NCBI RefSeq assembly: GCF_006351005.1
Contig: NZ_VENP01000021.1
Coordinates: forward strand, 1 to 53,119
Direction: 5' to 3'
DNA: 53,119 nucleotides
Source: Miniimonas arenae
GTDB taxonomy: Bacteria; Actinomycetota; Actinomycetes; Actinomycetales; Beutenbergiaceae
Shown here: in pieces, positions 19,319 through 49,600 of the stretch
How positions within the stretch are numbered: position 1 is the stretch's first letter
Layout: each line of letters begins with the position of its first letter
The notes under the pieces: model-generated
The model's input: the letters and a program-made list of their open reading frames with translations, nothing else
What the model was told of the DNA's origin: nothing
Database searches by the model: none
Translations under genes and position numbers: made by a program

Positions 19319-20914
19319 ATGACCCAGGTCCTGCTCCTGCTGCTCGCGATGGCGCTCGTCGCCGCGTGCGGTGCGTTCGTCGCCGCCGAGTTCTCGTTCA
19401 TCACCGTGGGCCGCGCCCAGGTGGAGTCGCAGGCCCAGCGCGGGGACCGCCGCGCGGTGGGTGTGCTCGCCGCGCTGCGCACCCTCTCGACGCAGCTCTC
19501 GGGTGCCCAGGTCGGCATCACCGTCACGAACCTCGCGATCGGTTTCCTCGCCGAGCCCGCGATCGCCGAGCTCATCCGCCCCGTGCTCCTGGACTGGGGC
19601 GTGAGCGAGTCGGCGGTGTCCACCTGGGCCGTGACGATCGGCCTCGTCGCCGCGACCGTGATCACGATGGTCTTCGGCGAGCTCGTGCCCAAGAACCTCG
19701 CGATCGCCCGTCCGATGGGCACGGCCAAGGCCGTGGCGGGCTTCCAGCGCGGCTTCACGCGCGCCGTCGCCTGGCCCATCCGCCTGTTCAACGGCACCGC
19801 GAACCGGCTCCTGCGCGCGGTCGGCATCGAGCCCCAGGAGGAGCTCGCGTCGGCCCGCAGCGCCGAGGAGCTGTCCGCCCTCGTCAAGCACTCCGCCAAG
19901 GAGGGCACGCTCGCGCTGGAGACGGCCGAGCTCGTCGAGCGCAGCCTCGCGTTCGGCGACCGGCGCGCGCGCGACGCCATGACGCCGCGCTCGAGGATGA
20001 TCGCGCTCGACTCGACCGACACCGTCGCCGAGCTCATCGACCGCGCGTGCTCCTCGGGCCACTCCCGCTTCCCCGTCATCGACATCACCGAGGACGAGGA
20101 GGGTCACTCCGAGGCCGAGGTGCGCGGCATCGCGCACATCCGCGCCGCCCTCGCCGTCCCCTACGACGAGCGCGCGACGACCCTCATCGGCCCGTTCGTG
20201 CGGCCCGCCATCATCTGCCCGGACTCCATCCCGCTCGACGAGCTCATGGACGACCTGCGGGCCGGCGGCCTGCAGATGGCCGTCCTGATCGACGAGTTCG
20301 ACTCGATCGCCGGCCTCGTCACGCTCGAGGACCTCGTCGAGGAGATCGTCGGGGAGGTGCGCGACGAGCACGACGAGGACGAGCGCGCCCCCTCCTCCGA
20401 CGGCGCGGGCGTGTGGACGTTGCCCGGCCTCATGCGCACCGACGAGGCCACCGAGATCCTCGACGTCGCCGTCCCCGAGGACGAGGCGTGGGAGACCCTC
20501 GGCGGGCTCGTCACGGCTCACCTCGAGCGCTTCCCCGACGTCGGCGACGTCGCCGAGGTGACGAGCGCGCACGTGCCCGGGGTCGACGACAGCCTGCTGC
20601 GGTTCGAGGTGCTCGAGCTCGACGGACGGCGGGTCGAGCTGCTCAAGGTCGAGGTCGTGCCGCTGCGCGCGGAGGGTGACGACGAGAAGGACGAGAACGA
20701 GGACGACGGCGACACGCGTGGCGCCGACGCGAGCGACGCGCACGACGCGCTCGACGGCGAGCCTCGCGACCCGCAGGACTCTCGCCTCGGCGACGCCACG
20801 GGTCCCGAGCTGGGCGACGTGCGGAGCCTGGTCGTGGGCGTCGAGCCCGGCGCCGACGCAGGCGGCTCCCGTGACGCGGGCCCGGCCGACTCGCGGACGG
20901 AGGAGGAGCGATGA
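19319..20914 (+). CDS. CNNM/CorC-type hemolysin family protein (CBS domains)
   Basis: A 531-residue membrane protein. Residues 1-200 are the CNNM domain with several hydrophobic helices (AEFSFITVGRAQVE, SGAQVGITVTNLAIGFLAEP, VFGELVPKNLAIARP). A CBS-domain pair follows at about 220-350 (RARDAMTPRSRMIALDSTDT, IDEFDSIAGLVTLEDLVEEI), then a CorC_HlyC domain to about 455 and an acidic Asp/Glu/Arg tail. Homologues take part in magnesium or cobalt efflux and sodium-magnesium exchange; 'hemolysin' is a historical label. Its TGA overlaps the ATG of the second CNNM gene, so the two are probably co-translated and may pair. The Shine-Dalgarno is weak. Confidence 0.92.
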   Translation: MTQVLLLLLAMALVAACGAFVAAEFSFITVGRAQVESQAQRGDRRAVGVLAALRTLSTQLSGAQVGITVTNLAIGFLAEPAIAELIRPVLLDWGVSESAVSTWAVTIGLVAATVITMVFGELVPKNLAIARPMGTAKAVAGFQRGFTRAVAWPIRLFNGTANRLLRAVGIEPQEELASARSAEELSALVKHSAKEGTLALETAELVERSLAFGDRRARDAMTPRSRMIALDSTDTVAELIDRACSSGHSRFPVIDITEDEEGHSEAEVRGIAHIRAALAVPYDERATTLIGPFVRPAIICPDSIPLDELMDDLRAGGLQMAVLIDEFDSIAGLVTLEDLVEEIVGEVRDEHDEDERAPSSDGAGVWTLPGLMRTDEATEILDVAVPEDEAWETLGGLVTAHLERFPDVGDVAEVTSAHVPGVDDSLLRFEVLELDGRRVELLKVEVVPLRAEGDDEKDENEDDGDTRGADASDAHDALDGEPRDPQDSRLGDATGPELGDVRSLVVGVEPGADAGGSRDAGPADSRTEEER

Positions 20915-21963
20915 GCGACGTCGCCGGCCTCGGCCTCACCGCCCTGCTGCTCGTGCTCAACGCGTTCTTCGTGGGCGCGGAGTTCGCGCTCATCTCGGCG
21001 CGGCGCACGAAGATCGAGCCGCGTGCCGCGGAGGGCAACCCCGTCGCACGCATCACGCTCTACGCGATGGAGCACGTGTCGCTCATGATGGCCGGCGCGC
21101 AGCTCGGCATCACGATCTGCTCCCTCGCCCTCGGCTCGATCTCCGAGCCCGCGATCGCGCACCTCATCGAGGCGCCGATGCACGCGATCGGCGTGCCCGA
21201 CGCCTGGCAGCACCCGATCGCGCTCGTCATCGCGCTCTCGCTGGTGACCTACCTGCACGTCGTGTTCGGCGAGATGGTGCCGAAGAACATCGCGCTCGCC
21301 GGCCCGGACCGGATGGCGATGGGCCTCGCGCCGTTCCTCGTCGTCATCGTCTGGCTGCTCTACCCCGTGCTCTGGCTGCTCAACGGCATCGCGAACATCA
21401 CGCTGCGCATGCTGCGCGTGACCCCGAAGGACGAGGTGACCAGCGCGTTCACCCGCGACGAGGTCGCCGAGCTCGTCGAGGAGTCGCACGAGGGCGGGCT
21501 CATCGAGCTCAACGACGAGAAGCTGCTCCTCGGGGCGCTGCAGTTCACCGAGCGCGACATCTCCTCGGTGGTCCTGCCGCTGTCCCGCGTGCGGACACTA
21601 CGGCCCGACGTCACCCCGGCCGGCGCCGAGGCGGCCTCGGTCCAGGGCTTCTCCCGGTTCCCGCTCGCGGATGCCGACGGGCGGCTCGTCGGCTACCTCC
21701 ACATCAAGGACATCATCGGCGTGAGCGAGCAGGAGCGCTGGGTGCCGATCGACCCGGCGCTCGTGCGTCCGCTGCCGCGGGTCTCCGCGTCGGACAGCCT
21801 GCGCGCGGTGATGCAGTCGATGCAGCGCACGAGCAGCCACCTCGCCGCGGTGCACGAGGGCGACGGCGACCGCCCGATCGGCGTGGTGACGTTGGAGGAC
21901 GTGCTCGAGGAGCTCGTGGGCGAGATCCGCGACGACTCCCGCCGGATGGCCGGCCGCGGCTGA
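20911..21963 (+). CDS. CNNM-domain hemolysin family protein, short form
   Basis: A 350-residue paralogue of the preceding gene: CNNM membrane domain (LNAFFVGAEFALISARRTKI, MAGAQLGITICSLALGSISEP, VFGEMVPKNIALAGP) and a CBS pair (about 205-340, ending GVVTLEDVLEELVGEIRDD). The CorC_HlyC domain and acidic tail are missing. Long and short CNNM genes are commonly paired in actinobacteria, suggesting a heteromeric transporter; that is inference. It starts inside the ATGA overlap and ends at a strong hairpin. Confidence 0.9.
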   Translation: MSDVAGLGLTALLLVLNAFFVGAEFALISARRTKIEPRAAEGNPVARITLYAMEHVSLMMAGAQLGITICSLALGSISEPAIAHLIEAPMHAIGVPDAWQHPIALVIALSLVTYLHVVFGEMVPKNIALAGPDRMAMGLAPFLVVIVWLLYPVLWLLNGIANITLRMLRVTPKDEVTSAFTRDEVAELVEESHEGGLIELNDEKLLLGALQFTERDISSVVLPLSRVRTLRPDVTPAGAEAASVQGFSRFPLADADGRLVGYLHIKDIIGVSEQERWVPIDPALVRPLPRVSASDSLRAVMQSMQRTSSHLAAVHEGDGDRPIGVVTLEDVLEELVGEIRDDSRRMAGRG

Positions 21964-22048: not shown

Positions 22049-22972
22049 TCAGCTCACGCGGCGCAGCGTCACGCTGCCGCTGCCCGCGCGCACGTGCACC
22101 TCGAGCGTGCGCTCGAACCCCTCGGCGCCCGGCACGCTCTCCAGCTCGCTGCGCACCCGGCCGGAGCGTGACTCGGCGTCCACGAGCACCGCGGTGCCGT
22201 ACGGCACGCCGATCGTCGACGAGCCCGAGCCGCTCACGCCCTCGACCCGCCCCGAGGTCGCCTTCGCGACCGCGAACGAGCCCGAGCCGGTCGTGGCAGC
22301 GACCCGCCCGGTCAGCTCTCCGATCCGCACGGCGCCGGATCCCGCGCGCAGCTCGAGGTCGCCCGAGACCTCGTCGATCGAGACGGCGCCCGACCCCGAC
22401 ACGAGCCTGCTCTCCCCGGCGATCGCGCCGACCCGCAGGCTGCCGCTGCCGGACTTGGCCACGAGGCGCCCGGTCCGGCCCACCTCGACCGCTCCTGACC
22501 CGGACGTGAGCGAGAGGTCCTCGACGGCGTCGATGCGCACGCGCCCCGAACCCGACCGCACCACGGCGGAGGCGGCCGACTCGAGCGTGAGCACGCCCGA
22601 ACCGGACCGTGCGTCCACGTCGAGCAGGCGACCGCGCAGGTCGACGCCGCCGGAGCCCGACACCACGCGCGCGTCGCTGCCGGCCGGCACGTGCACGTCG
22701 AGGCGTACCGAGCCGCCGAGGCCGAACAGCGTGACCTGGGCGGGAACCTCGACCACGAGCCCGTGCTCGTCGAGGTGCACGACGACGGAGTCGGCGAGCT
22801 GCTGTGCGCGCGGTCCCGTCGCCGTCACGGCGACGCGAGCCTGCGCGAGGTCCTCGACCGCGGTGACGGTCGCGGCGGCGTGGCGCAGGTCGAGCCGGGC
22901 GGCGTAGGGCAGTGCGGCCGGCCCCTCCTCGACGCGGTGGAGGTTCGAGCCGGTGGGGGTGTCGGTGGTCAT
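22049..22972 (-). CDS. DUF4097 family beta-strand repeat protein
   Basis: A 307-residue putative adhesin-like beta-helix of the DUF4097/DUF4098 type. From about residue 90 it is a run of short repeats centred on SGSG (VVSGSGGVDLRG, ARSGSGVLTLES, VRSGSGRVRIDA, LTSGSGAVEVG and so on), each a strand-turn-strand. There is no signal peptide or transmembrane segment, so this copy is probably cytoplasmic; that makes a surface-adhesin role unlikely. It follows the ribbon-helix-helix gene on the same strand after 63 bases and is probably co-transcribed from the TGACACC promoter region. Function is not established for the family. Confidence 0.85.
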   Translation of the reverse strand: MTTDTPTGSNLHRVEEGPAALPYAARLDLRHAAATVTAVEDLAQARVAVTATGPRAQQLADSVVVHLDEHGLVVEVPAQVTLFGLGGSVRLDVHVPAGSDARVVSGSGGVDLRGRLLDVDARSGSGVLTLESAASAVVRSGSGRVRIDAVEDLSLTSGSGAVEVGRTGRLVAKSGSGSLRVGAIAGESRLVSGSGAVSIDEVSGDLELRAGSGAVRIGELTGRVAATTGSGSFAVAKATSGRVEGVSGSGSSTIGVPYGTAVLVDAESRSGRVRSELESVPGAEGFERTLEVHVRAGSGSVTLRRVS

Positions 22973-23035: not shown

Positions 23036-23668
23036 TCAGCCGACCCAGCCGGTGAGGCGGTGACCGCGACGCGGCGGCGGCCCCTGCTGCCCGGCCGGGC
23101 CGGCCTGCCACCCCGCGCGCAGGCGGAGCTCGGCGGCCTGGACGAACCAGGTGTTGGTGGACTGGCCGGCCGCGGCGGCCGCGGCATCGACCCGCGCCTT
23201 GAGCGCGTCGGGGATGCGGAGCGTGAACCGCGTGGCCCCGCCGTCACCGCCCCCGCCGTCGCCGCCCGCCGCATCGCCGGAACCGTCGACCGGGGAGTCC
23301 ACGGGCCCCCCGGCCGACCCGGCGGGCCACGCGGAAGGCGTGCCGTAGGGCGAGGTGTCGAGCACCGCGGTGGGGTCGAGCGCGTCCGTCGGCTCCAACG
23401 CCGCCGTCGGCCCGAACGCCTCGGTGCGGAGCCGGGCGACGAGCACGGGCTCGCCCTCCTGCAGGCGCACCTCGACGTCGGCCACCGCTCCGAGCTGGTC
23501 GTCGAGCGTGCGGGCGGCGTCCTCGAGGACGCCCTGGAGAGCGAGGCGGACGGCGGGCTCGACGGCGAGCGAGAGCCGTATCGCGGCCTCCTCCACCGGG
23601 CCACCGGTCGAGGCGCCGAGGACGGTGAGCTGGTCGCGCACGGTGCGCACGTGGTCGTCGAAGGTCAT
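23036..23668 (-). CDS. Ribbon-helix-helix DNA-binding protein
   Basis: A 210-residue protein with two parts. Residues 1-75 are helical (VRTVRDQLTVLG, AAIRLSLAVEPAVRLAL, ARTLDDQLGAV) and unassigned. After a Gly/Asp/Pro linker comes an Arc/MetJ-like RHH motif near residues 145-190 (TRFTLRIPDALKARVDAAAAA, STNTWFVQAAELRLR). RHH dimers bind short repeated half-sites through a beta-ribbon; the upstream region is packed with TGACACC half-sites, so autoregulation is likely. The start at 23668 lies in the first half-site. DUF4097 follows downstream. Target genes elsewhere cannot be judged. Confidence 0.8.
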   Translation of the reverse strand: MTFDDHVRTVRDQLTVLGASTGGPVEEAAIRLSLAVEPAVRLALQGVLEDAARTLDDQLGAVADVEVRLQEGEPVLVARLRTEAFGPTAALEPTDALDPTAVLDTSPYGTPSAWPAGSAGGPVDSPVDGSGDAAGGDGGGGDGGATRFTLRIPDALKARVDAAAAAAGQSTNTWFVQAAELRLRAGWQAGPAGQQGPPPRRGHRLTGWVG

Positions 23669-23747
23669 GACACCATGGTGACACACCATGACACCAGATG
23701 TCACCCCTTCGGTGTCACCTACCCGAATGCGGTGTCACGGTGACACC
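23668..23747. promoter_or_regulatory. Operator array of TGACACC/GGTGTCA half-sites
   Basis: Exact or near copies of TGACACC occur in both orientations at 23668-23674, 23679-23685 (TGACACA), 23689-23695, 23698-23705 (ATGTCACC) and 23711-23719 (GGTGTCACC). A perfect 17-bp palindrome follows at 23731-23747: GGTGTCAC and GTGACACC around one G. The array fills the gap between the upstream lipoprotein stop and the RHH start, so it covers the RHH-DUF4097 promoter. RHH regulators typically bind such multimerised half-sites; that the local RHH protein does so is inference. Confidence 0.8.
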
Positions 23748-23756
23748 GTCGGCCTG

Positions 23757-25388
23757 CTACGACCCCGACGTCACCACCACCGGCGCCGGGTTCAGCGCCT
23801 GCAGCTCCCCGAGCGAGACGGCGTTCGCGCCCTGCCACCAGCCCCACCACGCGGGTCCCGGCACCACGGCGCCCTCCCACACCTGTCCGGCCGACACCGC
23901 CGCCGGCGCACCCGGCACGTCGGAGGCAGGCGTGACCGCTCCACCGTCGACCTGGACCACAAGGTTCACCTCGGGCCGCGACGTCACCATCGCCGAGGCG
24001 TCCACGGGCGAGCGCACGACGACGAGCTTCGGCGGGAGCGCGGCGTCGCGCGTGAGGTCCGCGAGCCAGTCCACGACCCCCGCCACCTCGGCGTCGCCGA
24101 AGGTGCCGCTGTGCGACTCGGGGGTCTCGGACTCCGCCAGCCGCCAGCGCGGCTCGAGCACGAGCCCGACGTTGGGCGAGCCGAGCACGTCCGCGTACGC
24201 CTGCACCTGATCCAGGAACGACTCCCGACCCGGCTGGAACGCGAGGAGCACCATCACCCCGCGCTCCTGCGCGTCGGCCACGACGTCGCGGATCGCGGCG
24301 AGCTCCGCACGCGCGCTGTAGGTGCCCGAGCGCCCTCGGGAGGAGGTGACGACCGTGGTGATCACCTCCGCCGTCGGCACGCCCTCGCCGTCGGCGATCT
24401 GCCCCGCCGTCGAGGCGAGCGCGTCCCAGTCGGGGAACCCGGAACCGGCCGTGCCGCGCACCCCCACGTAGACCGAGCCCGGCAGGAGGAGCTGGCCGCC
24501 GCCGGGCAGCTGCGTGCCGGTGGCCGCCACCGCGACCTCGTAGGAGAGCGCCTCGAGCGTGCCCACGTCGCCGACGCCGACGGCGCGGGTCGGCTGCAGC
24601 CCGTAGATCTGCGCGCTCGCGGCGCTGTCGGCGAGGACGGGCTCGTCGGTCACCACGACGGCGGAGCCCGCGGCACGCGCGGTGCCGAGCGCGGCGACCT
24701 GGTGCGCTCCGCCGTCGGAGACCGTCACCGTGTCGGCGAGGCGCGCCGTCGCGAGCACGGGCGGCAGCCCCGGCAGGTCCGCGAGCGCGGGCGCACTGGC
24801 GTCCGGGCTCGGCGTCTGCGTCGACTCGGTGGTGAGCAGCCAGTCGAACGGGGCCTGCGCATCGGCGATGGCCTCCACCGCGTCCTCGGGCTGGATCACC
24901 TCCTCGCCCGCGAGATCGTGGCCGAGCACCACCTGGAGCGCGCTCAGCTCGCGCGGCGCCTGCACCGCGCGCAGCAGCGGGCGGTCCTCGCCGAGCTCGG
25001 GCACCTCGGCGCCGTCGACCACGAGCACCGTGTGCGTGCCGAGCCGCGTGAGCTCGGTCGCCACGGCGTCGTCGGCGCCGTCGCCCATGACCAGGGCCGG
25101 CACGCCGAGCAGCATCGCGATCGACGCGGCGCGCACCTGGGACGCCTCGTCGGCGGGCGTGAGGACGACGATCCCGGCCGTGGTGAAGAACTCCTGGCTG
25201 GCGGAGACGGCGAGGGTGCCGGCCGTGTCGCCGGACAGGATGACGTCGGGCAGGTCGCCGGCGACCAGCGCGCCCGGGCTTGCGCTCGCGGCGGGGTCGG
25301 CGGGCAGCTCGGCGAAGCCGGAGCACGCGGTGAGCGCGCCGACGGCGAGCGCCAGCGCGGCAGTCGCCAGCCGGAGACGCCGGTGCAC
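23757..25388 (-). CDS. Lipoprotein, cell-wall-binding-repeat-2-like
   Basis: A 543-residue exported lipoprotein: Arg-rich start, hydrophobic helix and lipobox LTAC followed by Ser. The mature part resembles putative cell-wall-binding repeat 2 (CWB2) folds in places (LLGVPALVMGDGADDAVATEL, LGTHTVLVVDG; also AAGSAVVVTDEPVLADSA) and has a second, TIM-barrel-like half (GVMVLLAFQPGRESFLDQVQ, NVGLVLEPRW). The CWB2 resemblance is partial and I do not recognise an enzyme. ATG at 25388 lies 3 bases after the stop of the HAD gene, so both are co-transcribed behind the XRE-cupin regulator. Confidence 0.7.
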   Translation of the reverse strand: MHRRLRLATAALALAVGALTACSGFAELPADPAASASPGALVAGDLPDVILSGDTAGTLAVSASQEFFTTAGIVVLTPADEASQVRAASIAMLLGVPALVMGDGADDAVATELTRLGTHTVLVVDGAEVPELGEDRPLLRAVQAPRELSALQVVLGHDLAGEEVIQPEDAVEAIADAQAPFDWLLTTESTQTPSPDASAPALADLPGLPPVLATARLADTVTVSDGGAHQVAALGTARAAGSAVVVTDEPVLADSAASAQIYGLQPTRAVGVGDVGTLEALSYEVAVAATGTQLPGGGQLLLPGSVYVGVRGTAGSGFPDWDALASTAGQIADGEGVPTAEVITTVVTSSRGRSGTYSARAELAAIRDVVADAQERGVMVLLAFQPGRESFLDQVQAYADVLGSPNVGLVLEPRWRLAESETPESHSGTFGDAEVAGVVDWLADLTRDAALPPKLVVVRSPVDASAMVTSRPEVNLVVQVDGGAVTPASDVPGAPAAVSAGQVWEGAVVPGPAWWGWWQGANAVSLGELQALNPAPVVVTSGS

Positions 25389-46641: not shown

Positions 46642-49600
46642 TCAGCGCAGCACGCTGCGCAGCTCCTGCGCCGTGATCCGCGCCGCGGGCACCCGATCCG
46701 CGCGACCCAGGTGCGCGAGCACGCCCCGGCGCAGGTGCGCCGGCGCCGGCCGGTCCGCGCCGAGCGCCAGCGACGTCACGATGATCCGCCCCGCTCCGAG
46801 GCGCGCCTCGAACAGCGCGGTGAGCCGACGCGCGGAGAACCACGTGTCGATCGGCCGGACGATCGGGGTGAGGGCCGACGGCAGACCGTCGGCGAGCATC
46901 GCGCGTGCGCCGTGCAGCAGGTCCCACCACAGCCAGTCGGTGTGGTCCTGCGTCGGGAAGTCCTCGAATACCGGGTGCGTGGCGTCGATCAGCAGGCCGA
47001 GCGTGTGCGGCGCCTGCCCCGACGTCCACGCCGTGTTCCAGAACACCGGCGTGAACCCCAGCGCCACGTCGTTGCCGATGCTTGCGCTCGGCAGCTCGAG
47101 CAGCACCGCAGCGCCCGCCTCCGCGGCTGCGATCGCCTCGGTCACCTCGTGGGTACCCACCACGCACGACGGCGCAGCCCGGGTCGCGCGCTCGGCCGGC
47201 GGCAGGGCGGGGGTCGCGCCGCCGGGACCTGCGGACCCGGACGCCTCGGGCGAGCCCGGCGTCACGGGCAGCGCGGGCGTCGCCGGCAGCGCGGACGTCG
47301 CCGGCAGCGCGGCGGTCGCGGTCGGCGCCGGCAGGAACCACAGCGGCCAGTCGTTCTCGTGCACCGACCCGTCGTCGGCGGTCACGGTGAGCCACAGCGT
47401 GAGCCGCTCGGCCCGCGCGCGAGCCGCGATCGGCACGGTCACCGGGCCCAGCCGGTTCCCGTTGCCCAGGGCGACGTGCACGCCGTCGGCCACCTCGCCG
47501 TCGTGCACCACCCCGCCTGCGTCGTCCCGCAGGCTCCACGTGACTCGCGCGCGCAGCGGCGCCGCGCCGAAGTGCGCGATCACGACGTCGAACGTGAGGT
47601 CCTCCCCCGCCGTCCAGACCCGCTGGGGCAGGAGCGCGAGCGGCACCGTGGGCCCGCAGAACCGGGAGAACTCCTCGGGGCTGCAGTAGCCCTTGGACTC
47701 CCAGAACGCGTTGAGCACCCCGACGGTGGCGGTGCCCTGGCCCGGGAAGTCGCTGAGCCCGAGCAGGTGGAAGCCGCCGAAGCCCTCGGTGCGCAGCGCC
47801 GACTCGACCTCCTCCTTGTAGCAGAGGGTCTGCAGCCGGCCGGAGACGCGCAGCAGGTCCGGGGCGAGGTCGGCGAGGCCGGCCCAGGCGAGGAAGTCCG
47901 CGAACACGTCGAAGTTCCGCGGCTGCATGAGGCCGGTGTAGCGCGCGCGTTCGGTGAGGTCCGGGTAGGCGCACCACTGGCCGATCTCGTGGCTCACCAC
48001 CGGTCGGGGCGAGGCCGCGACGGCGTCGCGGTAGTCCGTCCGCGTCTCCGGCGGCAGGGCGTTGAGCCGTGAGGCCAGGCCGTCGCCCCACTGGTGGGCG
48101 CGGGGGGCCGGGACGTTGTCGAGGTCGTTCTCCTCGATCGCGGGCCAGCCCGCGGCGCTCGTGTAGAGGCGGCGCGGGTCCAGGCGCTGGCACCAGCGCA
48201 GCCAGCCGCCGAGGAGCTCCGCGTCGCGACCCGCGGGCTCGTTGCCGTGCGCCATCACGACGAACGAGGGGTGGTTGCCGAACGTGTCGAGGATGCGGCG
48301 GGTCTCGGCGTGCAGGAACGCGTCGACGGGCCGGCCCTCGCCGATCGCGGCGCCCTGGTTCGCCCACAGCGGGCCCTCGACCTGCAGGTACATGCCCGCC
48401 TCGTCGGCCGCGACGAACGCCGCCTCGGGCGGGCACCACGAGTGGAACCGGACGAGGTTGAGGCCGTGCGCGCGGCAGACCTCGACGATGCGGCGCCAGG
48501 CGGCGACGTCCGTGGGCGGGAAGCCGGTGAGGGGGAAGACGGCGCACTCGAGCGTGCCGCGGAAGAACGCCGGGCGGCCGTTGATCTCCAGGCGGCCCTC
48601 GCGGACCGCGATCTCGCGCAGGCCGAACCGGGTGCGGTGGGTGTCAGTGTGCTCGACGTCGTCCACCCGCGTGCTGAGTTCGACCGTCAGCTCGTACAGC
48701 GCCGGGTCGAACTCGTCCCAGGTGCGGGCGTCGGGGCCGAGGTCGAGCACGAGGTCGACGCCGGCGCGCGAGGCGGTGAGGCCGCGCTCGCGCAGGTCGA
48801 CCTCGTAGACCTCGTCGAAGGACGCCTCGGCAGTCGCGGTCGGGGTGGTCGCGGTCGTGGCCGACGGCGCGGCGGCGGTGGCGCCGTCGGCCGACGGCGA
48901 GCCGGGCGTGCTCGGGGGCGTGCTCGCGGAAGGTGACGCCTCGCCGTCGGGAGCGTTCGCGGAGGGCGCGCCTGCCTCAGGAGGCGCGCCCGGGGACACG
49001 AGGCGCGCGGTGGCGCGCACGACGCCGCGGCCGGTGCCCGCCGTCGTGCCCGCGAGATCGACACGGACCTCGACGCGGCGCGCGGCGACGTCGGGGAACG
49101 TGCGCACGCGCGAGATGACGACGTCGGGCAACGCCGTGAGCGTGAGCGCGCCGATCGCGCCGTTCCAGTTCCCCTGCGTGTGGTCGGAGACGCTGTGCGC
49201 GTTCGGGCCGACGTCGACGACGGTGCGGTTGTCGATCCGCACGGTGAGCACGTGCGGGCCCGGCGCGAGAGGTGCGAGGTCGACCTCGTGCGGCGTGCAG
49301 AGGCTGTCGGCGCAGCCGGCGCGCTCGCCGTCGAGCCACACCGTGGACTCCCAGTGCACGCGCTCGAGCGACAGGCGCACGCGCCGGCCCGCCCACTCCG
49401 GCGGGATCGCGACGGTGCGCGTGAACCACGCGGCGCCGCGGTAGTAGCGCCGCGGCTGGAGCCAGAACGGCACCGCGATGTTGCCGGGCCGCCGGTAGGG
49501 CGCGTAGCGCTCGTCGGTGAAGAACGAGCGGTCGACGATGCTGCCGGTCCAGGGCGTGTCGAGGGCGATCTCGTCGCCGAGTCCCTGGTGCTGGATCGAG

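Follow-up and report, generated by a model that had tools for sequence, protein, structure and literature searches.

A helically phased octamer array as the predicted operator of an RHH-DUF4097 gene pair in Miniimonas arenae and other actinobacteria

The repressors Arc and Mnt of phage P22 have the ribbon-helix-helix (RHH) fold assigned here to the protein under study; 1mnt_A is among its closest solved sequences (E 0.047), and Arc is among its fold matches. The half-sites of Arc are spaced 11 bp apart, and the loci compared here resemble this arrangement, with adjacent octamers about one helical turn apart (228 pairs at 11 bp and 93 at 22 bp over 193 loci). In contrast to Arc and Mnt, the RHH domain is C-terminal, joined by a long linker to an N-terminal domain of helices and a beta hairpin; as a rule the operator consists of three octamers over a predicted leaderless start, and the neighbouring gene encodes a DUF4097 protein. 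Autorepression by an RHH protein is also described for RelB/RelE, in which, according to the available text of PMC2812701, dimers bind cooperatively on one face of the DNA and the product of the partner gene acts as co-repressor. That text describes hexads without half-site spacing and a toxin as partner, whereas here the partner is a Toastrack (DUF4097) protein and no toxin was seen. The omega protein (ParB of pSM19035) is likewise an RHH protein that occupies many short sites in both orientations over promoters, but those sites are consecutive 7-bp heptads and the protein has a role in partition, as far as the accessible part of PMC9499535 describes it. An omega-type array was rejected for this locus, in which consecutive 7-bp sites are absent and the octamers recur every 11 bp and multiples of it. 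By comparison with these systems, the array would very probably work through cooperative autorepression of the Arc/RelB type, a familiar mode of control that shows some new features here.

An actinobacterial operon of an RHH factor, Toastrack and ABC transporter genes has appeared in a PSP survey (PMC11237479), whose available text names no operator, recognition code or tail for it. Within the open-access literature, this was the only paper found in which DUF4097 and ribbon-helix-helix occur together; no description of the operator, the residue-149 code or the C-terminal tail was found there, and the one paper found with TGACACCA and related terms concerns LexA. Judged from sequence, the arrangement is common to many actinobacteria, and this widespread family, hypothetical in the one annotated record examined, gains a predicted operator, a predicted recognition code and a predicted target promoter.

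Genes of the locus and the RHH protein

The window analysed is the whole 53,119-nt stretch of DNA from M. arenae, and its coding features considered here are the following:

22049..22972, minus strand: DUF4097 (Toastrack) gene, 307 aa (Pfam PF13349)
23036..23668, minus strand: RHH (HicB/Arc-type) gene, 210 aa, with its ATG at 23668-23666 (Pfam HicB; start supported by relatives)
23039..23065, minus strand: conserved C-terminal tail of the RHH protein, GHRLTGWVG, of low model confidence (alignment, model)
23105..23239, minus strand: RHH domain, residues 144-188, with recognition residues R147, T149 and R151 (Pfam, alignment, model)

A sequence-only reading of the window had proposed that a dense repeat array feeds an RHH gene and then a DUF4097 gene, and both genes indeed pass Pfam cut-offs. 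The first product matches the HicB family (PF05534) with 25.4 bits over residues 147-178, against a cut-off of 21, and the second matches PF13349 (DUF4097/Toastrack) with 36.2 bits, against a cut-off of 22.9. The DUF4097 protein has no membrane segment by hydropathy (top 19-residue mean, 1.33), which agrees with the cytosolic appearance attributed to it earlier. A six-frame search of the genome with PF13349 at E 0.001 listed another place (contig C35) and not the DUF4097 gene of the window. The LiaG equivalog (NF049997) was rejected as an identity for this protein, the score being 45.8 bits with a cut-off of 285. A HicAB toxin-antitoxin pair was also rejected: there is no HicA neighbour, the next gene being DUF4097 and the preceding gene having no Pfam match. 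PADLOC returned no match for either the RHH or the DUF4097 protein.

The operon comprises two genes here because the next gene past DUF4097, of CNNM type, is convergent; it belongs to a CNNM/CBS membrane protein gene pair on the plus strand at window positions 19319-21963. On the other side, at 23757-25388 of the minus strand, lies the gene of a 543-aa protein with a lipoprotein-like start by eye, which ends 8 bp before the array and belongs to no family found in Pfam at E 0.1 or in NCBIfam at E 1. Two plasmid records, both from Streptomyces, matched in a check for mobile origin; in a check for phage origin, only the RHH part matched PHROGs, and weakly.

As modelled by AlphaFold from 80 sequences (mean pLDDT 71.9, pTM 0.36), the RHH protein has two N-terminal helices (residues 3-21 and 23-59) and a beta hairpin (63-80), followed by a low-confidence linker, two C-terminal helices (154-166 and 171-188) and a low-confidence tail; as a monomer, it shows no DSSP ribbon strand. 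Solved RHH structures, among them AtaR, TacA, AmrZ and Arc, can be superposed on residues 144-194 (Z about 5-6). The AtaR match (Z 6.0 over 48 residues) is below the level at which the tool is telling, and Foldseek E values exceed 0.1; the Pfam match carries the RHH assignment, since fold comparison alone does not decide. For the N-terminal domain (to residue 80), no Pfam or NCBIfam family was found at the limits used, and residues 1-60 gave only generic helical fold matches (Z 5-6), which are no proof of kinship.

The octamer array, its conservation and the predicted promoter

Within 23668-23748 we found five exact TGACACC/GGTGTCA sites, starting at 23668, 23689, 23711, 23731 and 23741, and two sites with one mismatch (TGACACA at 23679 and GATGTCA at 23697), giving a total of seven and bearing out an earlier count of at least seven half-sites in both orientations. 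The array ends, as had been stated, in a 17-bp palindrome, GGTGTCACGGTGACACC at 23731-23747, perfect except for its central base; no second exact copy occurs in the 3.4 Mb genome, and each of nine further places listed has 3 mismatches. The description of the array as filling an 80-base intergenic region fits the array but not its surroundings: 88 bp (23669-23756) lie between the genes, the array stops at 23748, and its last site (23668-23674) enters the RHH gene by sharing the A of the ATG (23668-23666, minus strand), a one-base overlap. The sole other exact TGACACC/GGTGTCA heptamer of the window lies at 48640, 25 kb off. The heptamer total in the whole window is at chance level (6 vs 6.07 expected), whereas the clustering is not, with five in 80 bp against a maximum of three in 200 first-order Markov simulations of the window.

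An octamer, TGRYRYCA, proved to be a better repeat unit than the heptamer. Window octamers matching at 7 or 8 of the 8 letters are found at -7, -15, -28, -35, -49, -69 and -80, and a further one at -105 is within the preceding gene. A phase of 10-11 bp is held by those at -7, -18 (6/8), -28, -49, -69 and -80, and those at -15 and -35 (7/8) are off phase; with its degenerate -18 octamer and its out-of-phase -15 and -35 sites, the window has an untypical, looser version of the array. The sites are as follows:

23668..23748, minus strand: predicted operator array of TGRYRYCA octamers, mostly phased at 10-11 bp (sequence and relatives)
23668..23675, minus strand: core octamer -7, TGGTGTCA, with a one-base overlap with the start codon (sequence)
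23676-23683, minus strand: 7/8 octamer -15, overlapping the -18 octamer (octamer scan)
23679..23686, minus strand: degenerate octamer -18, GTGTGTCA, 6/8 (sequence; slot conserved in relatives)
23689..23696, minus strand: core octamer -28, TGGTGTCA (octamer scan)
23696..23703, minus strand: octamer -35, TGACATCT, 7/8, overlapping the predicted -35 element (octamer scan)
23710..23717, minus strand: upstream octamer -49, TGACACCG (octamer scan)
23731..23747, no strand assigned: 17-bp palindrome GGTGTCACGGTGACACC, formed by octamers -69 (23730-23737) and -80 (23741-23748) with the usual 3-bp linker (sequence)

For comparison, relatives were collected from several searches, in which the RHH protein was matched in 23 of 59 genomes, in 50 of 396 genomes across the phylum and in 112 of 296 genomes of the class, each count including the window's own genome. 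The named loci are the best 80 of 290 relatives, picked with one conserved RHH peptide pattern, and distant relatives are under-sampled among them. Those from the three genome searches are the best-scoring matches, to which 60 further near-full-length matches of the class, not all of them, were added. The relatives are mostly Actinomycetota (Cellulomonas, Promicromonospora, Ruania, Arthrobacter, Nonomuraea and others), and some are metagenome bins labelled Dormiibacterota, Acidobacteria and others. Removal of one locus without an RHH match, four without an N-terminus or start, and near-duplicates reduced 223 loci to 194 non-redundant ones. Five of these (L133, L136, L137, L144 and L233), with no array at the chosen start, were counted in the 194 and left out of the tree, class-prediction and promoter tests.

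Octamers near -29, -18 and -7 (at least 7/8 letters, with a shift of 1 allowed) are all present in 153 of the 194 loci, and the rest have two (33 loci), one (2) or none (6). Two or more core octamers thus accompany the RHH gene in 186 of 194 loci, and the absence of the array from relatives with the same gene pair, named earlier as an outcome that would refute the sequence-only reading, was not seen. In the first set (114 loci, ungapped and aligned by start codon), the three sites read TGRCRCCA at -29, TGGTGTCA at -18 and TGGCGTCA at -7, the last of which ends in relatives with the A of the ATG. The octamer at -7 is perfect in 140 of 193 loci. Among the same 193 loci, perfect octamers are spaced not only by 11 and 22 bp, as given above, but also by 32-33 and 43-44 bp. 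That the repeats are a functionless product of chance or base composition is hardly credible: the heptamer count in the whole window equals expectation, but the clustering exceeds all 200 simulations, and the octamers keep their fixed offsets in 153 of 194 loci, which contradicts chance.

The sequence-only reading had further suggested cooperative, filament-like repression, of which repression by the RHH protein, given the covariation described below, is the best reading. A filament, with RHH protein spreading over the whole array as omega does on heptads, would suit the seven sites in 80 bp of the window. The octamers, however, are separated by 3-bp linkers, with steps of 20-21 bp in the window, in contrast to the consecutive heptads described in the accessible part of PMC9499535. 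Relatives have a mean of just 3.1 perfect octamers, phased at 11 bp with linkers between them, and two to four are present in 162 of 193 loci, making such coating very unlikely. We favour instead an autoregulatory operator of the RHH-DUF4097 operon, its octamers probably bound by RHH dimers that repress transcription, and consider this reading likely.

The octamers probably overlie a promoter with a leaderless start, in which the transcript would begin at the ATG. Its predicted elements in the window are:

23699..23704, minus strand: predicted -35 element, GTGACA, TTGACA-like in relatives (inferred)
23675..23680, minus strand: predicted -10 element, CACCAT (inferred, partly confounded with the octamers)

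The layout is GTGACA (23704-23699), 18 bp, CACCAT (23680-23675), six bases and the ATG. Among 189 loci, a TTG starting at -38 to -34 is found in 176 and xAnnnT at -12 in 174 (CACCAT there in 17), and the two occur jointly in 163, compared with 3 of 1880 in a shifted-position control; no Shine-Dalgarno-like motif was found in any of the 189. Leaderless bacterial genes, common in Actinobacteria, carry a TANNNT signal about 12 bp before the start codon according to the available text of PMC3160421, and TANNNT also figures as a -10 motif in that of PMC3898074. The fit of the -10 element is partly forced, because the A at -11 and the T at -7 are octamer letters, which leaves as independent signs the TTG of the -35 element, the A/T-rich bases of the linker (-10 to -8) and the missing Shine-Dalgarno motif. 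The first base of the -10 element is, in addition, mostly C and not T (CAnnnT), and together with the shared letters this keeps the leaderless start at no more than likely.

Under the autoregulatory reading, one RHH dimer would bind each TGRYRYCA octamer, with strand residues R147, T149 and R151 entering the major groove, and adjacent dimers 11 bp apart would sit on one face of the helix, probably cooperatively as in Arc and RelB. The three core octamers would together occupy the spacer, the -10 element and the point where transcription starts, and in relatives the -35 element would lie between octamers; an octamer start near -40, the place of the -35 box, is outside the 25 commonest positions. 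A filled array would then block RNA polymerase and hold down RHH, DUF4097 and any downstream ABC genes. Candidates for lifting repression, presumably in response to an inducer, are the N-terminal domain, the C-terminal tail and the DUF4097 partner.

Activation or dual control, with upstream octamers activating and core octamers repressing, would parallel AmrZ, an RHH protein described as both activator and repressor in the available text of PMC3325190. Three window octamers (-49, -69 and -80) do lie upstream of the -35 region, and relatives have a mean of 0.8 perfect octamers upstream of -37. The sites that vary least, however, are those over the -10 element, its spacer and the start of transcription, which suit repression, and the upstream sites vary; we regard dual control as unlikely and autorepression from the core octamers as the better account.

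Residue 149 and operator class

Strand residues of RHH proteins read bases, and in RelB the contacts modelled in the accessible part of PMC2812701 are S3, D5 and R7, three alternate strand residues. The equivalent alternate positions in the predicted RHH domain here are R147, T149 and R151, and residue 149 aligns with Asn8 of Mnt. The recognition triplet is RTR in 109 loci, RNR in 49 and RSR in 36, accounting for 194 of 194. The operators themselves fall into two classes, TGAC/GTCA and TGGC/GCCA, and the class follows residue 149. Loci with N149 comprise 47 of the TGGC class and 2 ties, with none of the TGAC class, whereas T149 goes with TGAC in 98 loci, TGGC in 4 and ties in 7, and S149 with TGAC in 29, TGGC in 4 and ties in 3. 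Of the four T149/TGGC exceptions, three lack an array at the chosen start and one is mixed (2:3).

Of 160 alignment columns, none predicts the class of the operator as well as column 149, with 0.718 bits above shuffled labels against 0.250 for the next column (179 loci, ten ties being left out in addition); column 149 also came first in the first set (0.676 vs 0.374). When proteins that share about 50% identity outside the strand are compared in pairs, the class differs in 2479 of 2556 pairs discordant for N149 and in 216 of 2940 concordant pairs, these pairs not being independent of one another. At about 80% identity, none of four N-discordant pairs, which are N/S pairs of Nonomuraea (L056, L078), differs in class. 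Among APC-corrected column pairs, 149/-13 ranks first, and 61/-16 and 203/-27, outside the strand, are also high. On a tree built without the strand columns, N versus T/S at position 149 changes 8 times. Supported branches carry only two independent pairs, usually one in the same direction and one without a difference, with none opposite, and two such pairs are too few for a tree-corrected test to be significant at all. Overall, these comparisons point to a one-residue code in which T149 or S149 would mostly go with TGAC and N149 with TGGC, and the RHH protein encoded just downstream very probably reads the array.

Partner gene, C-terminal tail and sites away from the promoter

Among 111 loci offering 1.2 kb of room or more, 108 have a DUF4097 gene on the same strand no further than 1.5 kb downstream, as detected with a neighbour profile built from the compared loci themselves; PF13349 places beside RHH genes in the genome search support the pairing. 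The earlier suggestion that RHH and DUF4097 form a functional unit is upheld to the extent that the pair is conserved, but the pair was not wholly unnoticed, the operon being present in the available text of PMC11237479. Where 4 kb of room or more was available (60 loci), 34 loci are followed within 5 kb by a same-strand frame with ABC ATPase motifs. Ten neighbour proteins were scanned, of which five are ABC_tran or ABC2_membrane proteins, one of them with a DrrA C-terminal domain; the other five are a tRNA synthetase, a PPDK-like protein, an AlkZ-like protein, a CGNR protein and one without a family. The order in a Streptomyces plasmid record is hypothetical protein, DUF4097, ATP-binding cassette, permease. 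In the lunaemycin cluster, the 177-aa protein Lun1, of unknown function, directly precedes the DUF4097 protein Lun2 according to the accessible part of PMC9866976, and from this size and order we infer that Lun1 is the RHH protein described here. The function of a cytosolic Toastrack protein, encoded beside ABC genes and, in the part of PMC9866976 available, in an antibiotic gene cluster, becomes testable with a reporter.

The C-terminal tail carries G[WFY] within the last 12 residues in 184 of 188 complete proteins, mostly as TGW or SGW, although the match in L142 is due to chance. Among 18 loci checked, DUF4097 accompanies the tail in each of the 13 that have it; three loci of one family (L235, L249 and L250) lacked the tail and no DUF4097 was found, and two divergent loci had DUF4097 without the tail. 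One further locus (L025) has the tail and no DUF4097 in its 1.5 kb. Conservation of the tail despite low model confidence suggests docking, which we offer as a lead, not a result. A more far-reaching proposal, doubtful as it stands, is that RHH and DUF4097 form a switch comparable to a toxin-antitoxin pair but non-toxic. In it, the cytosolic Toastrack protein would dock on the RHH tail (R-x-T/S-G-W) and set how many dimers fill the phased octamers, and an envelope or drug signal sensed through Toastrack would open the leaderless promoter, both for the pair and, in many species, for a Drr-type ABC exporter. The frequency of the tail and its joint presence or absence with DUF4097 speak for this proposal, the two divergent loci and L025 against it.

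In one family (L138, L142 and L225), the RHH gene and its array are kept, with no DUF4097 in 2-3 kb downstream and no C-terminal tail found. Since these loci keep the array although no DUF4097 was found, the array goes with the RHH gene.

A double-octamer pattern had 45 sites in the 59 genomes, 35 at the RHH operon and 10 elsewhere, compared with 6 for a reversed control. The operon sites span 18 of the 23 genomes with an RHH match; the window's own genome (G000) and four others (G009, G020, G032 and G035) have no exact match there. All but one of the 35 are at the RHH promoter, and two are on another contig (G014:C52), the locus being broken; these two were assigned on the ground that they repeat a relative's array. 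With up to one mismatch, the window's own genome has 6 places against 3 in the control, and the window array is not among them, a result that weighs against the autoregulatory reading. With 35 of 45 sites at the RHH operon and an off-site count near control, the pattern points to a dedicated autoregulatory operator, and no regulon is visible at double-octamer stringency in the 59 genomes.

If the array were instead the operator of another regulator, with the RHH protein acting elsewhere or not on its own gene, sites away from the RHH gene would be in keeping with it, and 10 of the 45 are of this kind, among them the single exact match that the window's own genome contains; the link between protein and array is, moreover, a computed one. 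Against this stand the presence of the array with the RHH gene in 186 of 194 loci, the covariation of RHH residue 149 with the operator, an off-site count of 10 that is close to the control count of 6, and the retention of the array by loci without DUF4097. We judge another regulator distinctly unlikely and retain autoregulation by the RHH protein.

Some of the individual sites deserve mention. The exact double octamer in the window's own genome, TGACGCCATGGTGATGCCA (L145 1501-1519; G000:C65:10354-10372), lies close to where a long frame begins, a frame that has the ABC-type motifs GSGKS and LSGGE and is UvrA-like by eye, with no Pfam family at E 1e-5; the site is a chance occurrence or a second target. 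The 19-mer TGGTATCACTGTGGTATCA is identical in three genomes of one genus (G020:C10:38717, G022:C2:3617752 and G023:C293:2362), and these sites, away from the RHH gene, are probably the operator of another regulator. The one operon site outside the RHH promoter (G031:C1:12890) is an additional double octamer, TGGTGTCAGTCTGGTGTCA, in the gap that separates RHH from DUF4097 (L024 1438-1456; G031:C1:12890-12908), hinting at separate control of DUF4097.
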